Source of the DNA: Anaerolineae bacterium
GTDB lineage: Bacteria > Chloroflexota > Anaerolineae > B4-G1
Assembly: GCA_016783285.1 (NCBI GenBank)
Contig: JADHWW010000048.1
Coordinates: 1 to 15,019, forward strand
DNA: 15,019 nucleotides
Direction: 5' to 3'
Below are positions 1,569 to 9,063 of this stretch, piece by piece. Within the stretch, counting starts at the first letter, position 1. Each line of letters starts with the position of its first letter. The position numbers and the translations under genes are program-made. The notes under the pieces were generated by a model. The model saw nothing but the letters and a program-made list of their open reading frames with translations. It did not search any database and was not told the origin of the DNA.

Positions 1569-2705
1569 GTGCGCCCCCGGGTCTACCAGCGGCACGCCGG
1601 CATCTTTCGCCTGATTTTCGCCGCCGAATTGGTGAGCTGGGCCAGCTTCAGCACCCTGGCCCTGGAACCCGACCCAGCCGGGGGGCAGGTGATTCGATTG
1701 TCCTACCCCATCTTCCTGCCGGGCCGCTATCCCAAGGCAGGCCCTAACCCCCAGGGTGAGCAGTTCTGGCGATGGGATGCCAAGGCCGGTCGCTACCACC
1801 TGGCCTGGCAGACCGTGGGCCCTTACAGCGAAGGACCGGTGGAGTCGGGCGCAGCCGAGCGGGCCTTTGTCAACGGTGACTATCTTGCCGCCCTCGGGTT
1901 TTACGAGGCCTTCCTGGCCAACGAGGCCTGGCAGCAGGATTACCAGGACAGCCATGGCTTGGCCTGGCCCGACAGCGTGGGGCCACGGGGACTGGCGGCC
2001 TGGTTGGACCTGGCCCGCCTGCACCGGGGCCTGTGCCTGGCGCTTACGGGACAGGCCGAGGACGCCCGGACCGCCCTGGCCGGGGTGGAGACGACCGAAT
2101 CCCTGGCCGAACTGGCCCAGGTCTTCCTGGATACCTACGACGACCCGGCTGGGGATCTGCTGGCCGGGCTGGCGGCTTACGAGCGCCGGCTGGCCGCCGG
2201 TCCCAAGGATGTGCTTTCCGGCGGGTTGGACCGCCCGGCCGCTGTCTATCGAGCCTTCACGGTTCAGACCGCCCTGGTTCGGACCGCCCTGGCCCAGGTC
2301 GGCCCGCAGGAACTGGCAGCGACGCTGGCGGCCTACGACGCCCCTGTAGCCGATCTGACGGTCAGCGACCTTGACGGGGATGGGGCGGCGGAAGTGGTCT
2401 GGCTGAGCCCGCCGTCCTGGCATGCTTATGCGCCGAACGAGACCCCGGTGGGCAACTGGCAGCAGGCCTTGGTAGCCTGGCAGGACGGCAACCGCTGGCA
2501 GATGACGGGAATCGCCGCCGCTGACCGGATCACGTTGCTCGGCGTCATGTCGCCGGATGCGCGGGGGCAGCGCGGCATCCAACTTCGCCTGATAGATACG
2601 GATCAGACTCAGCAAGTGGCCTTGTTCTGGGATGGAGAGGTAAAGCGGCCTTATGCAACCGTCCGGCAGGCAGGCTGGCCCACCGTAGGCTGGCCGGAGT
2701 CCTGA
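1569..2705 (+). CDS. FG-GAP/VCBS-like exported protein, truncated at 5' end
   Basis: No exact family is recognised. The C-terminal third has a calcium-loop-like DLDGDGAAEVVW motif (FG-GAP/VCBS type), preceded by an Ala/Leu-rich helical section containing a TPR-like GDYLAALGFYEAFL stretch. This layout resembles large surface or lipoprotein genes of Chloroflexota in which a DxNxDG beta-repeat part precedes an 'accumulating-item' helical part. There is no signal peptide. The frame stays open upstream to 1518 with protein-like sequence, and no Shine-Dalgarno precedes the GTG at 1569. The likeliest reading is therefore a 3' fragment whose front was cut off by the IS110 insertion, with the missing part to the left of the window. 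The stop TGA touches an ATG at 2705, and the next gene's SD follows directly, so the two were probably one operon. Confidence 0.6.
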   Translation: MRPRVYQRHAGIFRLIFAAELVSWASFSTLALEPDPAGGQVIRLSYPIFLPGRYPKAGPNPQGEQFWRWDAKAGRYHLAWQTVGPYSEGPVESGAAERAFVNGDYLAALGFYEAFLANEAWQQDYQDSHGLAWPDSVGPRGLAAWLDLARLHRGLCLALTGQAEDARTALAGVETTESLAELAQVFLDTYDDPAGDLLAGLAAYERRLAAGPKDVLSGGLDRPAAVYRAFTVQTALVRTALAQVGPQELAATLAAYDAPVADLTVSDLDGDGAAEVVWLSPPSWHAYAPNETPVGNWQQALVAWQDGNRWQMTGIAAADRITLLGVMSPDARGQRGIQLRLIDTDQTQQVALFWDGEVKRPYATVRQAGWPTVGWPES

Positions 2706-2731
2706 TGGAGCACGATCGGAGGTACTCTGCG

Positions 2732-3997
2732 ATGAAACGATGGCATCTTCTACTCGCTGGACCTTTAGTATCCGCTGTGTTCCTTGCCGCCTGCACGGGC
2801 CCCGCGTGGAAACAGAACCCCGACGTGCAGGCCGCCCAGGCCGCGTGCGCGGGCCTGCCGGAAGCAGAGCGCTACGCCTGCATCGAGCGCCACGCCACAG
2901 AGCGCCTCAACCCGGATGTCTGTCGCCTGGCCGGGATGTGGGTAGACGATATGTGTCTGCAAGCGGTCTACGAAGCGGCTGACGACCCGACCATCTGCGA
3001 CCGGCTCTACCTGGAGGGCGTACGCCCCACCTGCCGGGCCTACTACGCGAGTCTGGAGATGGCGGCGACACCTCCCGGCACCCCCCTGGCGCTGACGGAG
3101 ACCTACACGGATCCGGTACTTGGACTGGCAGTCGACTATCCGGCCGGGTGGCAGGTCGATGCGGTGGCGGACGCCTTTGTGCACTTCAGCGCACCCGTGC
3201 CATCCACATCCACTGTGGGCATCGTGCGCTATCCCCAGCCGACCGATCCCACGCTGGACACGGTGCTGGATGAGGTTCTGCAGGGTAGCGAGGGACCGCG
3301 CGCCACCCGCACCCAGACTCTCACCGTCGGCGGGCAGCCGGCGGTCCAGGTCTTTTTCGGCCCGCACGAGGACTGGCGTCCCGACACGGTCGTCTTGGTT
3401 GCTGACCCGGTCGGGGAGTGGTGGACCCTGGATGGGTACGGCGAGTTGGCCGTTTTCGATCAAATCGTTAGCACGCTGCGCTGGCTGCCCCGCAGCCTCC
3501 CTGCTCCCACAACGACTCCGGCAGGCACGCCCGTCGCCGGCGGCATCCCCTTCACCGTCTGCCAGTCGTCGGAGACCTGGACCCGGCCCAGCAGCTACGC
3601 GAAGCCGTGCCCTGGGGCGAAGCCGCCCAAGTACCTCATTCGCGACCGGGACAGCAAGTATGGCCGACGGTTCTCGACCATTGCCGCCAGTAGTGGTATC
3701 AAGGAACTGAAGACGCCGTTTCAAGCCCCAAAAGCCAACGCCCACTGCGAGCGGTTTATCGGCAGCCTCAAACGGGAATGCCTGGACCACTTTCTCATTC
3801 TCCGCCGCGACCAACTGCATCGCCTCGTCACCCAATTCGTAGATTTCTACAACCACTCCAGACCGCATCAAGGCATCAGGCAGCGCATCCCGGCTCGATT
3901 CAACGAAGACTACCATCCCCAAGCGGGCAGAATCACATCAATGCCTGTACTAGGTGGCCTCCATCATTCTTACGCCCGCGTCGCCTATCTAATCTGA
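2732..3997 (+). CDS. Chimeric ORF: lipoprotein fused to integrase remnant
   Basis: Start chosen at ATG 2732 (GGAGG at 2718-2722, 9 nt spacing) rather than the upstream ATG 2705, because it gives a classic lipoprotein signal: MKRW, hydrophobic core, lipobox LAAC. After the lipid-anchored Cys comes a short Cys-paired region (about six cysteines within 70 residues). Next is a PsbP/LpqN-like section with VDYPAGWQV and repeated beta strands up to about residue 260, then a Pro/Thr linker. From about residue 280 the sequence is no longer lipoprotein. From KYLIRDRDSKYG onward it is the second half of an rve integrase core (Asp in RDRD, Glu in NAHCERFIGS, ending PVLGGLHHSYA). The native lipoprotein C-terminus is lost. 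The cell-surface role is unknown, and the fused protein is probably non-functional as an integrase because the first catalytic Asp is missing. Confidence 0.7.
   Translation: MKRWHLLLAGPLVSAVFLAACTGPAWKQNPDVQAAQAACAGLPEAERYACIERHATERLNPDVCRLAGMWVDDMCLQAVYEAADDPTICDRLYLEGVRPTCRAYYASLEMAATPPGTPLALTETYTDPVLGLAVDYPAGWQVDAVADAFVHFSAPVPSTSTVGIVRYPQPTDPTLDTVLDEVLQGSEGPRATRTQTLTVGGQPAVQVFFGPHEDWRPDTVVLVADPVGEWWTLDGYGELAVFDQIVSTLRWLPRSLPAPTTTPAGTPVAGGIPFTVCQSSETWTRPSSYAKPCPGAKPPKYLIRDRDSKYGRRFSTIAASSGIKELKTPFQAPKANAHCERFIGSLKRECLDHFLILRRDQLHRLVTQFVDFYNHSRPHQGIRQRIPARFNEDYHPQAGRITSMPVLGGLHHSYARVAYLI
3565..3997 (+). mobile_element. Decayed IS481-like integrase fragment
   Basis: This is the 3' remnant of a DDE/rve transposase. 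Reading across frames recovers ETWT, then (frame +2, after an apparent 2-nt insertion near 3584) AQQLREAVPWGEA, then (after an apparent 1-nt insertion near 3627) PKYLIRDRDSKYG and the rest to the stop at 3995. The two insertions add to three, so the lipoprotein frame runs into the integrase frame. The N-terminal HTH part and first catalytic Asp are absent. The left boundary is uncertain by about 30 nt. IS481 is the best guess for family; a related rve group is possible. Confidence 0.65.
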
Positions 3998-4337: not shown

Positions 4338-4721
4338 ATGACAAGAACGCAGTCCGAAGTCTCAAAATCGCTACCCCTACGAGAACCTACTTTTTTCATC
4401 TTGCTCAGCCTGGCGCGAGGAGAGAAGCATGGGTATGCAATTATGAAAGACATTGATGAACTCAGCCTTGGAAGAGTAAAGCTGAGCACTGGAACCTTGT
4501 ACGAGGCGCTGGCTCGGCTGTTGGATCAGAACCTAATCGAGCGCATCGACGAGACCGAGTCAGGAGAGAGAGAATTCCAGAAGCGCCAGAATCATCCCGG
4601 CCGTCCTCGAAAGTCTTATCGCTTGATGCAAATGGGGTGGCGTGTGCTCGAAGCTGAAACCAATCGCATGCGAGCTCTGGTCGCCGCCGCTCCACTGCGG
4701 TTCGGAGGGGAGCAGGTTTGA
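4338..4721 (+). CDS. PadR-family transcriptional regulator
   Basis: A 127-residue winged-helix DNA-binding protein. Residues about 14-65 carry the family pattern: EPTFFILLSLARGEKHGYAI, then KLSTGTLYEALARLLDQNLIE. The wing and C-terminal helix follow (GRPRKSYRLMQMGWRVLEAE). Length and layout fit the small PadR group with one C-terminal dimerisation helix. The ATG at 4338 has GGAAGG four bases upstream. The stop overlaps the TTG start of the membrane gene at 4718, so it heads a translationally linked operon. It most likely represses its own promoter through the palindrome at 4283-4307. The inducer is unknown; in similar operons PadR responds to membrane or antimicrobial stress, but nothing here shows that directly. 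Confidence 0.9.
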   Translation: MTRTQSEVSKSLPLREPTFFILLSLARGEKHGYAIMKDIDELSLGRVKLSTGTLYEALARLLDQNLIERIDETESGEREFQKRQNHPGRPRKSYRLMQMGWRVLEAETNRMRALVAAAPLRFGGEQV

Positions 4722-5808
4722 CCAAGATGATGACCATTCGCGTGTTTGGGTCGCTGTATAAGCTGCTTCTGCGTCTCTACCCACGCCATTTCCGCGACGA
4801 ATTCGCCAGGGAGATGCGGGCTGTGTTCTCCGAATCGCTTGATCAGGCGGCGAAGCAGGGGATCTTGGCGCTGGTAGGCGTAGGCCTGCGAGAATTGCTC
4901 GATGCGCCGCTCACTCTCCTGAGAGTGCACTGGATCAGTTGGAAGAAGAAAGGGAAGGCGACGAGTGGTTCAACCGCCAGATTCCCGCCAGTTCCCAGCC
5001 CTTCCCTCCCGCTGCCCTCCCCGGACGGGCATGAATCTTGGATGCAGGCAGGGCTGGAAATCAGCCTGTTCCTGTCTATGGGGGTAGTCCTCGTCTTGCA
5101 GACCTATCTTCCTCTTACCTGGCCAGTGTCAGGCCCGCTGCGCGGTATGGGAAGCATCAACACAGCAATTCTCCTTCTATCCGCTCTCGGCTTCCTAGTT
5201 GGTCTGGCGCGTGGTTTGCCGCGCTGGGCCTACCCGTTCGGTGGGATTTTGCTGGGTTACGGCTTTCTGGCTGCGATCCGTTTCGACATGTTGTCATTCC
5301 TGATTGCTTCTCTGCTGGCATTCGTTGTCCTGGCGGTCGCGGCGGCGGTCGTCAATGCACGAGCCCGGCCTTTGCCGCCTTTACTGCGGCGCCTGGGGCA
5401 GAGCATTGGATTGGATTGGATTGGACCCGGTTATCCTTTTGCATCTACGGCGCTATGCCCCTGATGATCACCACTGCTTTCGACGATGCCCGCTATGACA
5501 ACCGGACCCCTTACCTGGTCATCTCTGTGCTGCTCATGGTCGCCGGAGCGTTTGCCTATATCAGGAGTCGCCGGACTGTTCTGCAGATGACCGCTCTACT
5601 GGGAGGAATGTCGCTCTCTTTTTGGTGTGCCCTATTGGATCAGGCTACCTTTTTTGGCGGGTTGGCATCCTGGTTCTCTTCTCCCGGCTCCTGGCTCGCA
5701 GAAATCGGCTGGATGTTGAAATTGTGGGCCAATGTAACTGCTTTGATGTTGGTGCCGTTCCTGATCAGGTTGGCGCACCGTGCTTTGGCCCCAGGGCGTG
5801 CGGCGTAA
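4718..5808 (+). pseudogene. Permease-prefix membrane protein split by frameshift (possibly phase-variable)
   Basis: The N-terminal 75 residues contain a soluble helix pair (RLYPRHFRDEFAREM) of the type found at the front of PadR-linked membrane proteins. They are followed by a Pro/Ser linker and four membrane segments in the frame starting at TTG 4718 (SD GGAGGGG 4704-4710, 7 nt spacing; ATG 4727 is an alternative). That frame stops at 5464. The rest, with about four more membrane segments (ISVLLMVAGAFAYI, LWANVTALMLVPFLI and others), continues in another frame to 5808. The switch falls at the (ATTGG)4 run. Removing one copy gives SIGLDWTRLSF and one 361-residue, eight-helix protein. As written, the product is a 248-residue truncated form. 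Possible causes are phase variation, a fixed mutation or a sequence error. Confidence 0.75.
5405..5425 (+). repeat. Tandem pentanucleotide (ATTGG)4 inside a gene
   Basis: Four uninterrupted ATTGG copies (5405-5409, 5410-5414, 5415-5419, 5420-5424) plus one further A. The unit length is not a multiple of three, so each gain or loss by slippage changes the reading frame. Three (or six) copies join the two halves of the membrane gene; four copies put it out of frame. Confidence 0.9.
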
Positions 5809-5826: not shown

Positions 5827-7170
5827 ATGACGGAGACTCTTTTGATCCAGATCGCAGTCATCCCCGCCCTGCTGGTTGTCCTGGCGGGGATGCTCGTTCT
5901 CCACGTGGGATCCGACCGCACGGCAGGCCGGCGCTTCCTGCTCTTTCTGCTGGCCACGGGCGTGCTGCTGATTGTTACCGTGTTTGTCGCCAGGCAGTTT
6001 TGGCCCGAGTGGTCGGCGTACCAGGTCTCAAACCTGCTGGCCCCCGTCCTGACCGGCGTGCTGGCCCTGATTCTGGTCAACCTCAAGCTGCTGGCCCAAT
6101 TGAGGACCGGCGAAAAAGCCGTAGCCGCCCTGCTGGGACTGGTTCTTTTGGTGCCCCAGGCCGGCATCTGGAGGGAACCCTCTGATATGACCTATGCGTT
6201 CCTACCCGGCGCGCTGCTGTTAGCTGCCGCCTGGGCCCTGGTGGGTTTCCCTAACGCCCTTGCTGTCTCTCTCAGTCTGGCGTCCCTGGTCCTCCTGGCG
6301 CTTTTTAATGCCGTGGTGCTCGTCAGCCCGGACCTACAGCTTCCCACCTGGCTACGCCTACCGGTTGCGATCTCGTTTTACGTCCTGCCTGGGCTGGTGG
6401 TCGCATTGGCGGCGGTGTTGATCTCGGCCGGGCTCAGGCTGCTCTCCCGGCCGGGAAACGTCGGCCAGCCGGGAGCGGCTCCGTCTTCCTGGTTCCCGGC
6501 CGCATGGCGATTGGGGTTGGCTGCCCTCCTGCTGGGTTACCTGGCCTACACCATCCTCCGGGCCTCGATCTGGGATCAGACCAGCGACGGCCTGGGTGGG
6601 CTCGTGCTGTCGATGCTGGCAGGCCCGGTAGCCATCGCCGCCGGCATGCTGATGGGAGTGACTGCCACCGGCTGGCGCAGGTCGGCAGGATTGGCTTTCG
6701 CCGTGTTGGTACCCGTTTTGATGTTCGGGGCATTCAACTACGGCTGGGACGTCTCTTACCACGCGATCACCGAAGCGCGCGCGGCCCGCATCCAGCGCGC
6801 CGTGGAACGCTTTCACGCCCGTGACGGGCGTTATCCGGATGAACTGAAGGAACTGGTCCCGCGCGATCTGTTATGGATCCCTGGGCCGGTCATCCTGCGA
6901 GGCCAGAGCTGGTGCTACCAGGGCGGCCAGGACTGTTACCGGTTGGGCGCCTTCTATCGAGAGTACTTTGGCTTCCCGCTCTCTCTGCGCATTTATGCTT
7001 CGGCCGGCAGCGCGCCGGAATCCGGCTGGGCGTGCGAAGAAAAGCTGGTTGAGCTAAAGGCCCGTTATGACCCACCGCCGATGTATGAACGCGACACCGT
7101 CTTAAGAAACCGCACGGATTGCGCGAACTGCATTCCCAAAAGGCAATGTCTATATGACAATGCGCGATGA
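5827..7170 (+). CDS. Multi-pass membrane protein with pseudopilin-like C-terminal domain, 3' end disrupted
   Basis: No named family is recognised. Residues 1-310 hold about nine or ten hydrophobic segments separated by short polar loops. Around 312-350 is a stretch like the N-terminal helix and YP turn of type II secretion G-type pseudopilins (ARAARIQRAVERFHARDGRYPDELKELVP). A Cys-containing extracytoplasmic part follows (WCYQGGQDCYRLG). GGGAGG at 5810-5815 precedes ATG 5827, only 18 nt after the previous gene, so it is the third gene of the PadR operon. The last 20 or so residues (from about 427, LRNRTDCANC onward) are IS1182 sequence read in the wrong frame, because transposase-coding sequence begins at about 7106. 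The native C-terminus has been lost and the protein may be shortened. Its function cannot be given. Confidence 0.7.
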   Translation: MTETLLIQIAVIPALLVVLAGMLVLHVGSDRTAGRRFLLFLLATGVLLIVTVFVARQFWPEWSAYQVSNLLAPVLTGVLALILVNLKLLAQLRTGEKAVAALLGLVLLVPQAGIWREPSDMTYAFLPGALLLAAAWALVGFPNALAVSLSLASLVLLALFNAVVLVSPDLQLPTWLRLPVAISFYVLPGLVVALAAVLISAGLRLLSRPGNVGQPGAAPSSWFPAAWRLGLAALLLGYLAYTILRASIWDQTSDGLGGLVLSMLAGPVAIAAGMLMGVTATGWRRSAGLAFAVLVPVLMFGAFNYGWDVSYHAITEARAARIQRAVERFHARDGRYPDELKELVPRDLLWIPGPVILRGQSWCYQGGQDCYRLGAFYREYFGFPLSLRIYASAGSAPESGWACEEKLVELKARYDPPPMYERDTVLRNRTDCANCIPKRQCLYDNAR

Positions 7171-8097
7171 ATTGGGTCCACTGTTCAGCGATGGTGATTT
7201 CGTGACGCTATTCTCGCTGCAAGGTCAAGCCGGTGAACCTCCAGCAATTCTGGCGACGGTGACAGTGCTGCAGTACATGGAAGGCCTGACCGATCGGCAA
7301 ACAGCCGAAGCAGTTCGCAGTCGCATTGATTGGAAGTATTTGCTGGGTTTACCACTGACTGACCCAGGATTTCACTACTCAATATTGAGCCCTTTTCGAG
7401 ATCGCTTGCTGGAAGGCAGCCGGGAAGCCCTGCTGTTGGACAGGGTCCTGGAGCGGCTGAAGGAATGTGGTTTTCTGAAAGGCAAACGGCAACAACGGAC
7501 TGACTCGACTCACATTCTAGCGGCGGTCCGTAAGATGAACCGTCTAGAGTGTGTGGGAGAGACCATTCGACGAGTGTTGAATGACTTGGCCCGTGTGGCA
7601 CCAGAATGGCTGTTGGGGCAGATTGCGCCTGACTGGTTTGATCGCTACAGAGCACGGTTTGAAGTCTATCGTCTGCCGAAAGAGAAGACCAAGCGAGAAG
7701 CGCTGCAACTGCAGATTGGTCAGGATGGCTTGCATTTGTTGGATGCGATCTACGGTGAAGACGCGCCATCCTGGTTGCATGAGATTCCATCGGTGGGGGT
7801 AATGTGCCGTGTGTGGATGCAGCAGTACTACACCGAAGATGATCAAATCAAATGACGGGATGACGAGGGCCTGCCGCCCCACAAGCTGCTGATCGTCTCA
7901 CCCGATGACATTGAGGCTCGCAACCGCACCAAACGAGAAAGCGGTCACGTTATATCGGACTGGCCAAAGCCCATCTACAACGCCTGGCTACAGCAGCAGC
8001 GATGAATTTGACCAGGACAGTAAGCTGGTTGATGGAAAAAGAGAAGCCAAAGGCACCACATCATCGCTCTCCATTCGCGGCTCTTGCTCCACCTTGA
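7106..8097 (+). pseudogene. IS1182-family transposase remnant, nonsense-mutated and internally deleted
   Basis: Coding similarity to IS1182 transposases starts at 7106 (ETARIARTAFPKGNVYMTMRDELG, no start codon left). It runs through the N-terminal DUF772-type region (LSLQGQ, LTDRQTAEAVRSRIDWKYLLGL, LTDPGFHYSILSPFRDRLL, RTDSTHILAAVRKMNRLE) to QQYYTEDDQIK. A TGA at 7853-7855 stands where this family has Trp (TGG). The same frame then goes on (RDDEGLPPHKLLIVSPDDIEARNRTKRE) to about 7940. It next jumps frame into a typical IS1182 C-terminus (RYIGLAKAHLQ ... RSPFAALAPP) ending at TGA 8095-8097. The section between, which holds most of the catalytic core, is deleted. The longest intact piece is a 233-codon ORF at 7154-7855. 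The element is dead; no terminal inverted repeats were found. Confidence 0.85.
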
Positions 8098-8124
8098 CGT
8101 AAGAATGCCCAACAAAGTCTTCTA

Positions 8125-8140
8125 ATTGTCGCTTGACAAT
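8125..8140. repeat. Short inverted repeat upstream of PHP gene
   Basis: ATTGTC (8125-8130) and GACAAT (8135-8140) pair perfectly over a GCTT loop. It lies 10 nt before the -35 of the predicted PHP promoter and 28 nt after the transposase stop. It could be an operator or a weak terminator, or it may have arisen by chance. Confidence 0.35.
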
Positions 8141-8149
8141 CCTTACCCC

Positions 8150-8178
8150 TTGCCCCTTTTGCCCATCTGCGGTACAAT
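8150..8178 (+). promoter_or_regulatory. Promoter of the PHP-aminotransferase operon
   Basis: TTGCCC (8150-8155), 17 nt spacer, TACAAT (8173-8178): four of six and five of six consensus matches with ideal spacing. It lies about 58 nt before the ATG at 8236, in the only sizeable gap in front of this gene run. Confidence 0.55.
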
Positions 8179-8235
8179 CCCGCCCAATTGAATCCGTTAC
8201 TGTCCTGTAATCCGAGTTCTATTTGTACGAGTTCT

Positions 8236-9063
8236 ATGCGCATTGACTTACACATTCACACCATCGCCTCCGACGGCTGCTGGACACCGGAGCGAGTTGT
8301 CGCCGAGGTTCAGGTTCGGGGTATCGGCCTCTTTGCCATCGCCGACCACGACTCCGTCGCCAGCGTGCTCACTGCCGAACCGCTGGCGCGCGAGGCAGGA
8401 TTGGCCTTCTTGCACGGTGTTGAGGTCTCCACTCTCTTGGATAGCCATCTCTTCCACGTCCTGGCCTATGGCTTTGACCTGGACGACCTCCCGTTGGCTG
8501 CATTACTACGTGAGAACAGAGTCGGGCTGAACCAACACAACGATGAGACCATCCGCCGTCTTATTGCTGCTGGTTACGAGATTGACCTGGACGACTACGC
8601 CGCCTATGAGTACGACCCCACCTGGGGCGGCTGGAAGGCGCTCAACTTCCTGATTGACCGGGGCTTCTGCACAGACGTGCACGACTACCTCCGTAACCTG
8701 ATGGCGTCTCTGCCCACCGAATGGCCGTCGTTCCCTCACCCTGCCGAAGCCATGGCCACCATTCGGGAGGCCGGTGGTGTGCCCATCCTGGCTCATCCTG
8801 GCATCAGCCTGCGCGGCGAGGGGGTCAGCGAAAAGACGCTGCACCCCTTCCTCGACTTCGGCATCGCCGGGCTGGAATGTTACTCCTACTATCACGACGA
8901 GGCTACGACCCGCTTCTGCCTGGACTGGTGCAATCGCCACGACCTGCTCATCACCGGCGGTTCCGACTGCCACGGCGGGTTCGTCGGGCGCGAACTGGGT
9001 GTCCCGGTCGTGGACATTGCCGACCTGCGGCTGGGCGAACTGGAGGAGCGGATCATACGCTGA
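8236..9063 (+). CDS. PHP-domain metal-dependent phosphoesterase
   Basis: A 275-residue protein of the polymerase-and-histidinol-phosphatase superfamily, in the group that includes YciV/TrpH 3',5'-nucleotide phosphatases. Metal-ligand positions are all present: H6 and H8 (DLHIHT), D13, H38 (ADHDS), E63 (GVEVS), H74 (HVLAY), H187 (AHPG), D244 and H246 (GSDCHG). It is expected to be a cytoplasmic enzyme that hydrolyses a phosphate ester using two or three metal ions; the substrate (nucleotide, RNA 5' end or a sugar phosphate) cannot be told from sequence. The ATG at 8236 is chosen because the HxH motif begins five residues in, as usual for the family. An upstream TTG (8188) would overlap the start of transcription. 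The next gene's SD follows its stop directly, so it is the first gene of an operon. Confidence 0.85.
   Translation: MRIDLHIHTIASDGCWTPERVVAEVQVRGIGLFAIADHDSVASVLTAEPLAREAGLAFLHGVEVSTLLDSHLFHVLAYGFDLDDLPLAALLRENRVGLNQHNDETIRRLIAAGYEIDLDDYAAYEYDPTWGGWKALNFLIDRGFCTDVHDYLRNLMASLPTEWPSFPHPAEAMATIREAGGVPILAHPGISLRGEGVSEKTLHPFLDFGIAGLECYSYYHDEATTRFCLDWCNRHDLLITGGSDCHGGFVGRELGVPVVDIADLRLGELEERIIR

Follow-up and report, generated by a model that had tools for sequence, protein, structure and literature searches.

The window, which is the whole 15,019-nucleotide stretch of DNA analysed here, contains a PadR operon in which a padR-family regulator is followed by a membrane protein gene carried in two reading frames and by a third gene that runs towards the remnant of a mobile element (Table 1). 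Two further transposase-like frames lie upstream of the operon. Just before it, window positions 2705-3997 contain the C-terminal end of an IS481/IS3-type integrase (NF033577, E 1e-15, below the curated cut-off; rve_3, E 8.8e-12), joined without a frame break to an N-terminal part that matches no family; judged by these matches, it is apparently another insertion remnant. An IS110-family transposase frame (NF033542, E 7.2e-34, below the curated cut-off) occupies positions 3-1337 and is open at the left end of the window.

Table 1. Features of the PadR operon and of the element remnant behind it (window positions).
Feature	Position	Strand	Remarks
padR-family regulator, first operon gene	4338..4721	+	127 aa, fully open; PF03551, E 7e-15
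Membrane gene, upstream part (frame A)	4718..5464	+	TTG at 4718; likely start ATG at 4727
Membrane gene, downstream part (frame B)	5404..5808	+	without internal stop; matches homologues along its length
(ATTGG)4.2 array	5405-5425	+	at the frame change, within the overlap of frames A and B
TGATG	5462..5466	+	frame A stop overlaps frame B ATG; candidate re-initiation point
Third operon gene	5827..7170	+	homology ends near residue 424 (about 7098, by eye)
IS1182-type transposase remnant	7154..7855	+	about the N-terminal half; TGA at 7853-7855

Frame A is open from 4658 and is closed by the TGA codon at 5462-5464, 12 codons past the array. Its likely start lies just past the padR stop, and is preferred to 4718 because MMTIRVFG is the N-terminus of the close homologue P0002. 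Frame B, shifted by -1 from frame A, stays open between 5035 and 5805, with its stop codon at 5806-5808. The first-pass annotation had placed four ATTGG units exactly where the membrane gene changes frame; this location (5405-5425) was confirmed, and with it the frame change on a repeat array in the second gene of a PadR operon. The outer coordinates that it had given for the gene (4718-5808) are borne out by the limits of the two frames, and its length of 361 residues, counted from the TTG with five fewer bases, agrees with the arithmetic of the coordinates, a count made on the two halves unjoined.

At 5 bases, one ATTGG unit does not correspond to a whole number of codons; the tandem tract lies inside a reading frame. 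Among exact arrays with unit sizes of 4-9 bases, (ATTGG)4.2 is the only one in the window with at least 4 copies. When windows were simulated with a second-order Markov model, at least 4 copies of any pentamer were obtained in 0/400 windows and at least 3 copies in 13/400. Pentamer arrays of at least 3 copies were not found in 94,142 bases of related DNA, a set from which loci L006-L010 were dropped as duplicates and in which some overlap remains.

Protein searches with the two halves of the membrane gene were made against a database holding one representative per 90% cluster. The upstream half, for which scoring was limited to the 7,999 candidates sharing most words, matched 41 proteins, and the downstream half matched 27 in a set overlapping the first, giving 51 homologues together. 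The closest in-frame homologue found was P0002 (366 aa), which aligned with 93% of the upstream query (92% identity) and was 89% identical to the downstream half. P0003, P0004, P0005 and P0007 run through the junction as 'GQSIGLDWTRLSFCIY'. A strict junction pattern was present in 38/51 homologues, followed by 93-128 residues, and a looser pattern in 45/51. Of the six proteins without the looser pattern, P0001 shares the frameshift of the window, P0039 and P0041 are divergent, and P0040 is too short at 140 aa. The region is missing from the other two, P0043 (208 aa) and P0046 (220 aa), which retain the N-terminal part together with the last helices; the middle, with the junction, is apparently deleted in both. 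It had been proposed that homologues be checked for full length at this point; the longer proteins do continue, in the frame that three units would give. Both halves of the window gene match the same longer read-through proteins, and therefore the window allele is out of frame; by this protein comparison it is frameshifted relative to its family.

A structure model of P0002, of moderate confidence (pLDDT 72.9, pTM 0.58), contained about eight long helices after an N-terminal helical part. These are presumably membrane helices; the junction lies past helix four, and the window allele loses about four of the eight predicted helices. The membrane gene had no family in Pfam (0/26 homologues matched), its downstream half gave only a sub-threshold match in NCBIfam (E 0.032), and a fold search with the membrane-protein model returned nothing at E <= 0.001. 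A literature search pairing PadR with 'permease prefix domain' found no paper.

The downstream half, although unread in frame A, showed no clear sign of decay: the window had no excess of unique changes there and frame B contained no stop. With P0003 as the outgroup, unique changes in the window and in P0002 numbered 4 versus 5 in the downstream half and again 4 versus 5 in the upstream half. With P0004, P0005 and P0006 as outgroups, the counts were 4 to 5, 4 to 6 and 6 to 5 downstream, and 2 to 7, 2 to 7 and 3 to 5 upstream, respectively. At columns invariant in ten homologues, the window departed at 1/50 downstream and 1/66 upstream. The absence of clear decay indicates that the frameshift is recent or, less likely, that it is reversible or an assembly error.

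That the two halves diverge unevenly was considered as a sign of decay or switching and was dropped. The window differed from P0002 at 11/225 positions upstream and 14/129 downstream (Fisher p 0.051), and P0002 versus P0003 showed the reverse lean (63/226 upstream, 22/129 downstream). Some in-frame pairs among the 15 pairs compared lean the same way as the window: P0004/P0005 (10/239 upstream, 17/128 downstream, p 0.003), P0020/P0021 (18/222 and 37/122) and P0008/P0015 (33/197 and 36/128). The uneven divergence between the window and P0002 thus carries no weight, since in-frame homologue pairs show it too.

In this frame, (ATTGG)3 encodes IGLDW only. This peptide was present in 5/45 homologues with a readable junction; the other junction motifs would be 1-5 base differences away from a perfect array. 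The probability of coding IGLDW as (ATTGG)3 under the codon use of the window was about 0.002, which counts against a repeat that arose by chance coding, although the value was computed after the repeat had been seen. A scan of genome contigs with the 248-aa protein gave no relatives, and a scan with alignment A1 gave five distant loci (L001-L005, 43-48% identity). In the five relatives whose junction DNA was inspected, the repeat was absent. Given that IGLDW is found in 5/45 homologues and the repeat in 0/5 relatives, the repeat is not conserved in the family. We infer the three-unit state from the protein frame of the homologues. Neither two scans of viral contigs nor a search of plasmids gave a match to the membrane gene.

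Searches with P0002 recovered the gene in 5/5 whole genomes of loci L001-L005 (E 1e-5) and, in a sample of the class, in 5/396 genomes at E 1e-20, the centre G001 itself included. At E 1e-30, matches were found in 4/56 genomes in the order of G005 and in the same 4/56 in the order of G001, in 0/2 genomes in the family of G059, and in 0/11 in the family and 0/48 in the order of the nearest genome, G380. An (ATTGG)4 array was also found in 0/48 genomes of this nearest order, which says little because the gene too was found in 0/48. The lineage of the window belongs to Chloroflexota, close to Anaerolineales, as judged from the names of P0001 and P0003 and from an 85% ProC match in G380; G380 falls in the class of G002, which is the genome of L002 (Anaerolineales bacterium UBA5797). 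Several related membrane-gene matches lie close together on G002:C47, G003:C19 and C27, and G004:C32. This clustering suggests tandem paralogues in the relatives, which could buffer the loss of one copy.

The record closest to the window, P0001, comes from a Chloroflexi MAG and is 98% identical over 248 aa. It leaves the frame at the position where the window does, and no other protein among the 51 homologues stops there. It has V for I at unit four, and this residue implies that the fourth unit would be GTTGG, i.e. an interrupted array. By eye, P0001 and the window differ at five residues, all in the last 35 of P0001. The end of P0001 may be of poor quality, because the differences are clustered there and the record is marked 'partial' and lies on a 2,568-base contig. 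Intact alleles above 92% identity were not found among the 51 homologues, which are cluster representatives only. Such an allele may be hidden, since the database holds one representative per 90% cluster and the cluster of P0001 has four members.

The arrangement of the operon is partly shared with relatives. A padR match immediately precedes the membrane gene in L005, L016 and L021 and lies about 1.2 kb before it in L002-L004; in L001 none was found. A homologue of the third gene follows the membrane gene in L001-L005, L016 and L021. In L002-L005 the membrane gene is followed by two consecutive matches to the third gene, the second being closer to the copy in the window. The third gene of the window is shortened: its closest relative found, P0053 (77% identical, 723 aa), extends 287 residues past the matched part, and its BLAST matches end at window residues 405-437 in 39/41 other homologues, P0053 included. 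The homologous open frame has 898, 872, 872 and 906 codons in L001, L002, L004 and L005, and only 480 codons in L003. Past its homology end, the third gene runs towards the IS1182-type remnant (NF033551, E 3.8e-39, profile positions 31-252 of 488), around which no inverted repeat was found at 6900-8250. Three contigs, of which the longest has 79,473 bases, encode the identical 447-aa product of the third gene. The shortening need not mean lost function, because third-gene relatives of only 419-441 aa exist (P0058-P0060 and P0065-P0067 have 419-432 aa); to judge from their lengths, the remaining part may be functional alone.

Pentanucleotide repeat-mediated phase-variable genes occur in Neisseria, and the first-pass annotation had proposed that the array acts as such a switch, with slipped-strand mispairing setting the gene on at three units (in frame) and off at four. 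We regard this as unlikely. The locus does resemble the Neisseria-type genes in that the frame depends on the number of units in a pentanucleotide tract within the coding sequence; the downstream half is apparently still constrained, and the simulations indicated that the length of the array is not expected by chance. It differs from them in that there are here four units, the repeat is not conserved among relatives, no surface role is assigned, and the window and P0001 are both out of frame, which leaves one state seen here. The implied interruption of the array in P0001 also speaks against a switch, as does the lack of a same-species intact allele among the 51 cluster representatives, the nearest being 92% identical, an argument weakened by a database with one representative per 90% cluster; the 0/48 count for (ATTGG)4 in the nearest order does so weakly, the gene itself being missing there. 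Four units are, moreover, below the cut-off of a survey of penta-repeats that required at least five units (PMC6321876). Of the earlier reading, the frame change on the array is supported, homologues staying in frame across it, and the switch role is not, the tract being short and not conserved, the nearest record being out of frame as well and the neighbouring gene being shorter than its closest relative. A more elaborate version, a low-copy pentanucleotide switch in a PadR-controlled membrane operon whose off state would make both halves via the TGATG overlap, is very improbable. Slippage-driven phase variation in uncultured Chloroflexota was not apparent in titles and abstract openings among the literature matches listed.

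Short tandem repeats are a common place for assembly errors, and an assembly or consensus error would mean that the genome truly has three units and an intact gene. The lack of clear decay in the downstream half fits this explanation; against it, the separate record P0001 has the same frame at the same place, although it may not be independent. We consider such an error doubtful, ranking it after phase variation and before a re-initiating split gene. In the latter, ribosomes would terminate at TGA 5462-5464 and re-initiate at the ATG at 5464 that overlaps it, and the two chains would assemble. The TGATG overlap and the open frame B down to 5808 allow for this. The overlap is, however, probably an out-of-frame reading of Leu-Met codons that are common in close relatives, and in the structure model the split would fall between helices 4 and 5 or inside the start of helix 5 and would cost about 20 residues. 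Nor is the split conserved, with P0001 as the only one of the 51 homologues that stops here. Translationally coupled split genes are a class in the GeneTack study (PMC3711429). The window shares with this class a first-frame stop overlapping a second-frame start, and differs from it in that the homologues are single proteins with no conserved split, which makes a split gene improbable here. A programmed -1 ribosomal frameshift restoring the protein would be consistent with frame B lying at -1 to frame A and overlapping it up to 5464. The homologues need no frameshift, and no X XXY YYZ heptamer starts in 5038-5464; programmed frameshifting was therefore rejected as highly improbable.

The explanation that we favour, and consider probable, is a recent chance slippage in a fortuitous (ATTGG)3 coding of a conserved motif, in an operon that is possibly losing function. 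The conserved IGLDW motif of the PadR-operon membrane protein would have been coded by chance as (ATTGG)3 in this lineage, and replication slippage or a 5-bp tandem duplication would then have produced the fourth ATTGG unit. The extra unit would shift the frame and end the protein 12 codons after the array, leaving a product with about four of the eight predicted membrane helices. The change would be recent, given that the downstream half, though unread, still has the appearance of a functional gene. In agreement with a loss of function, which the operon may be undergoing in this lineage, the third gene is cut short beside a mobile-element remnant. A fixed mutation had been named earlier as the alternative to a switch and fits best with the short, non-conserved tract, the out-of-frame nearest record and the shortened neighbour. 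As in a recent pseudogene, one non-triplet indel separates the gene from its longer homologues, here in the one narrow lineage seen, and the neighbouring gene is shortened too. Unlike in a typical case, the unread half is without clear decay and the indel has precisely the length of one repeat unit; the half that is no longer read does not appear to be under relaxed constraint, which fits only a recent event.

As read here, the finding is minor: one more gene has probably been lost to a repeat slip. Nothing found shows an on/off role for the array, and the change has the look of an unremarkable, recent slippage event in an operon to which a mobile element also seems to have done damage and on which selection may be weak. 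If the repeat varied within a population, it would represent slippage-driven phase variation in uncultured, apparently environmental Chloroflexota. The case is also a warning against reading every conspicuous repeat at a frameshift as a switch: the codons of a conserved peptide may happen to form a perfect repeat, which then slips.
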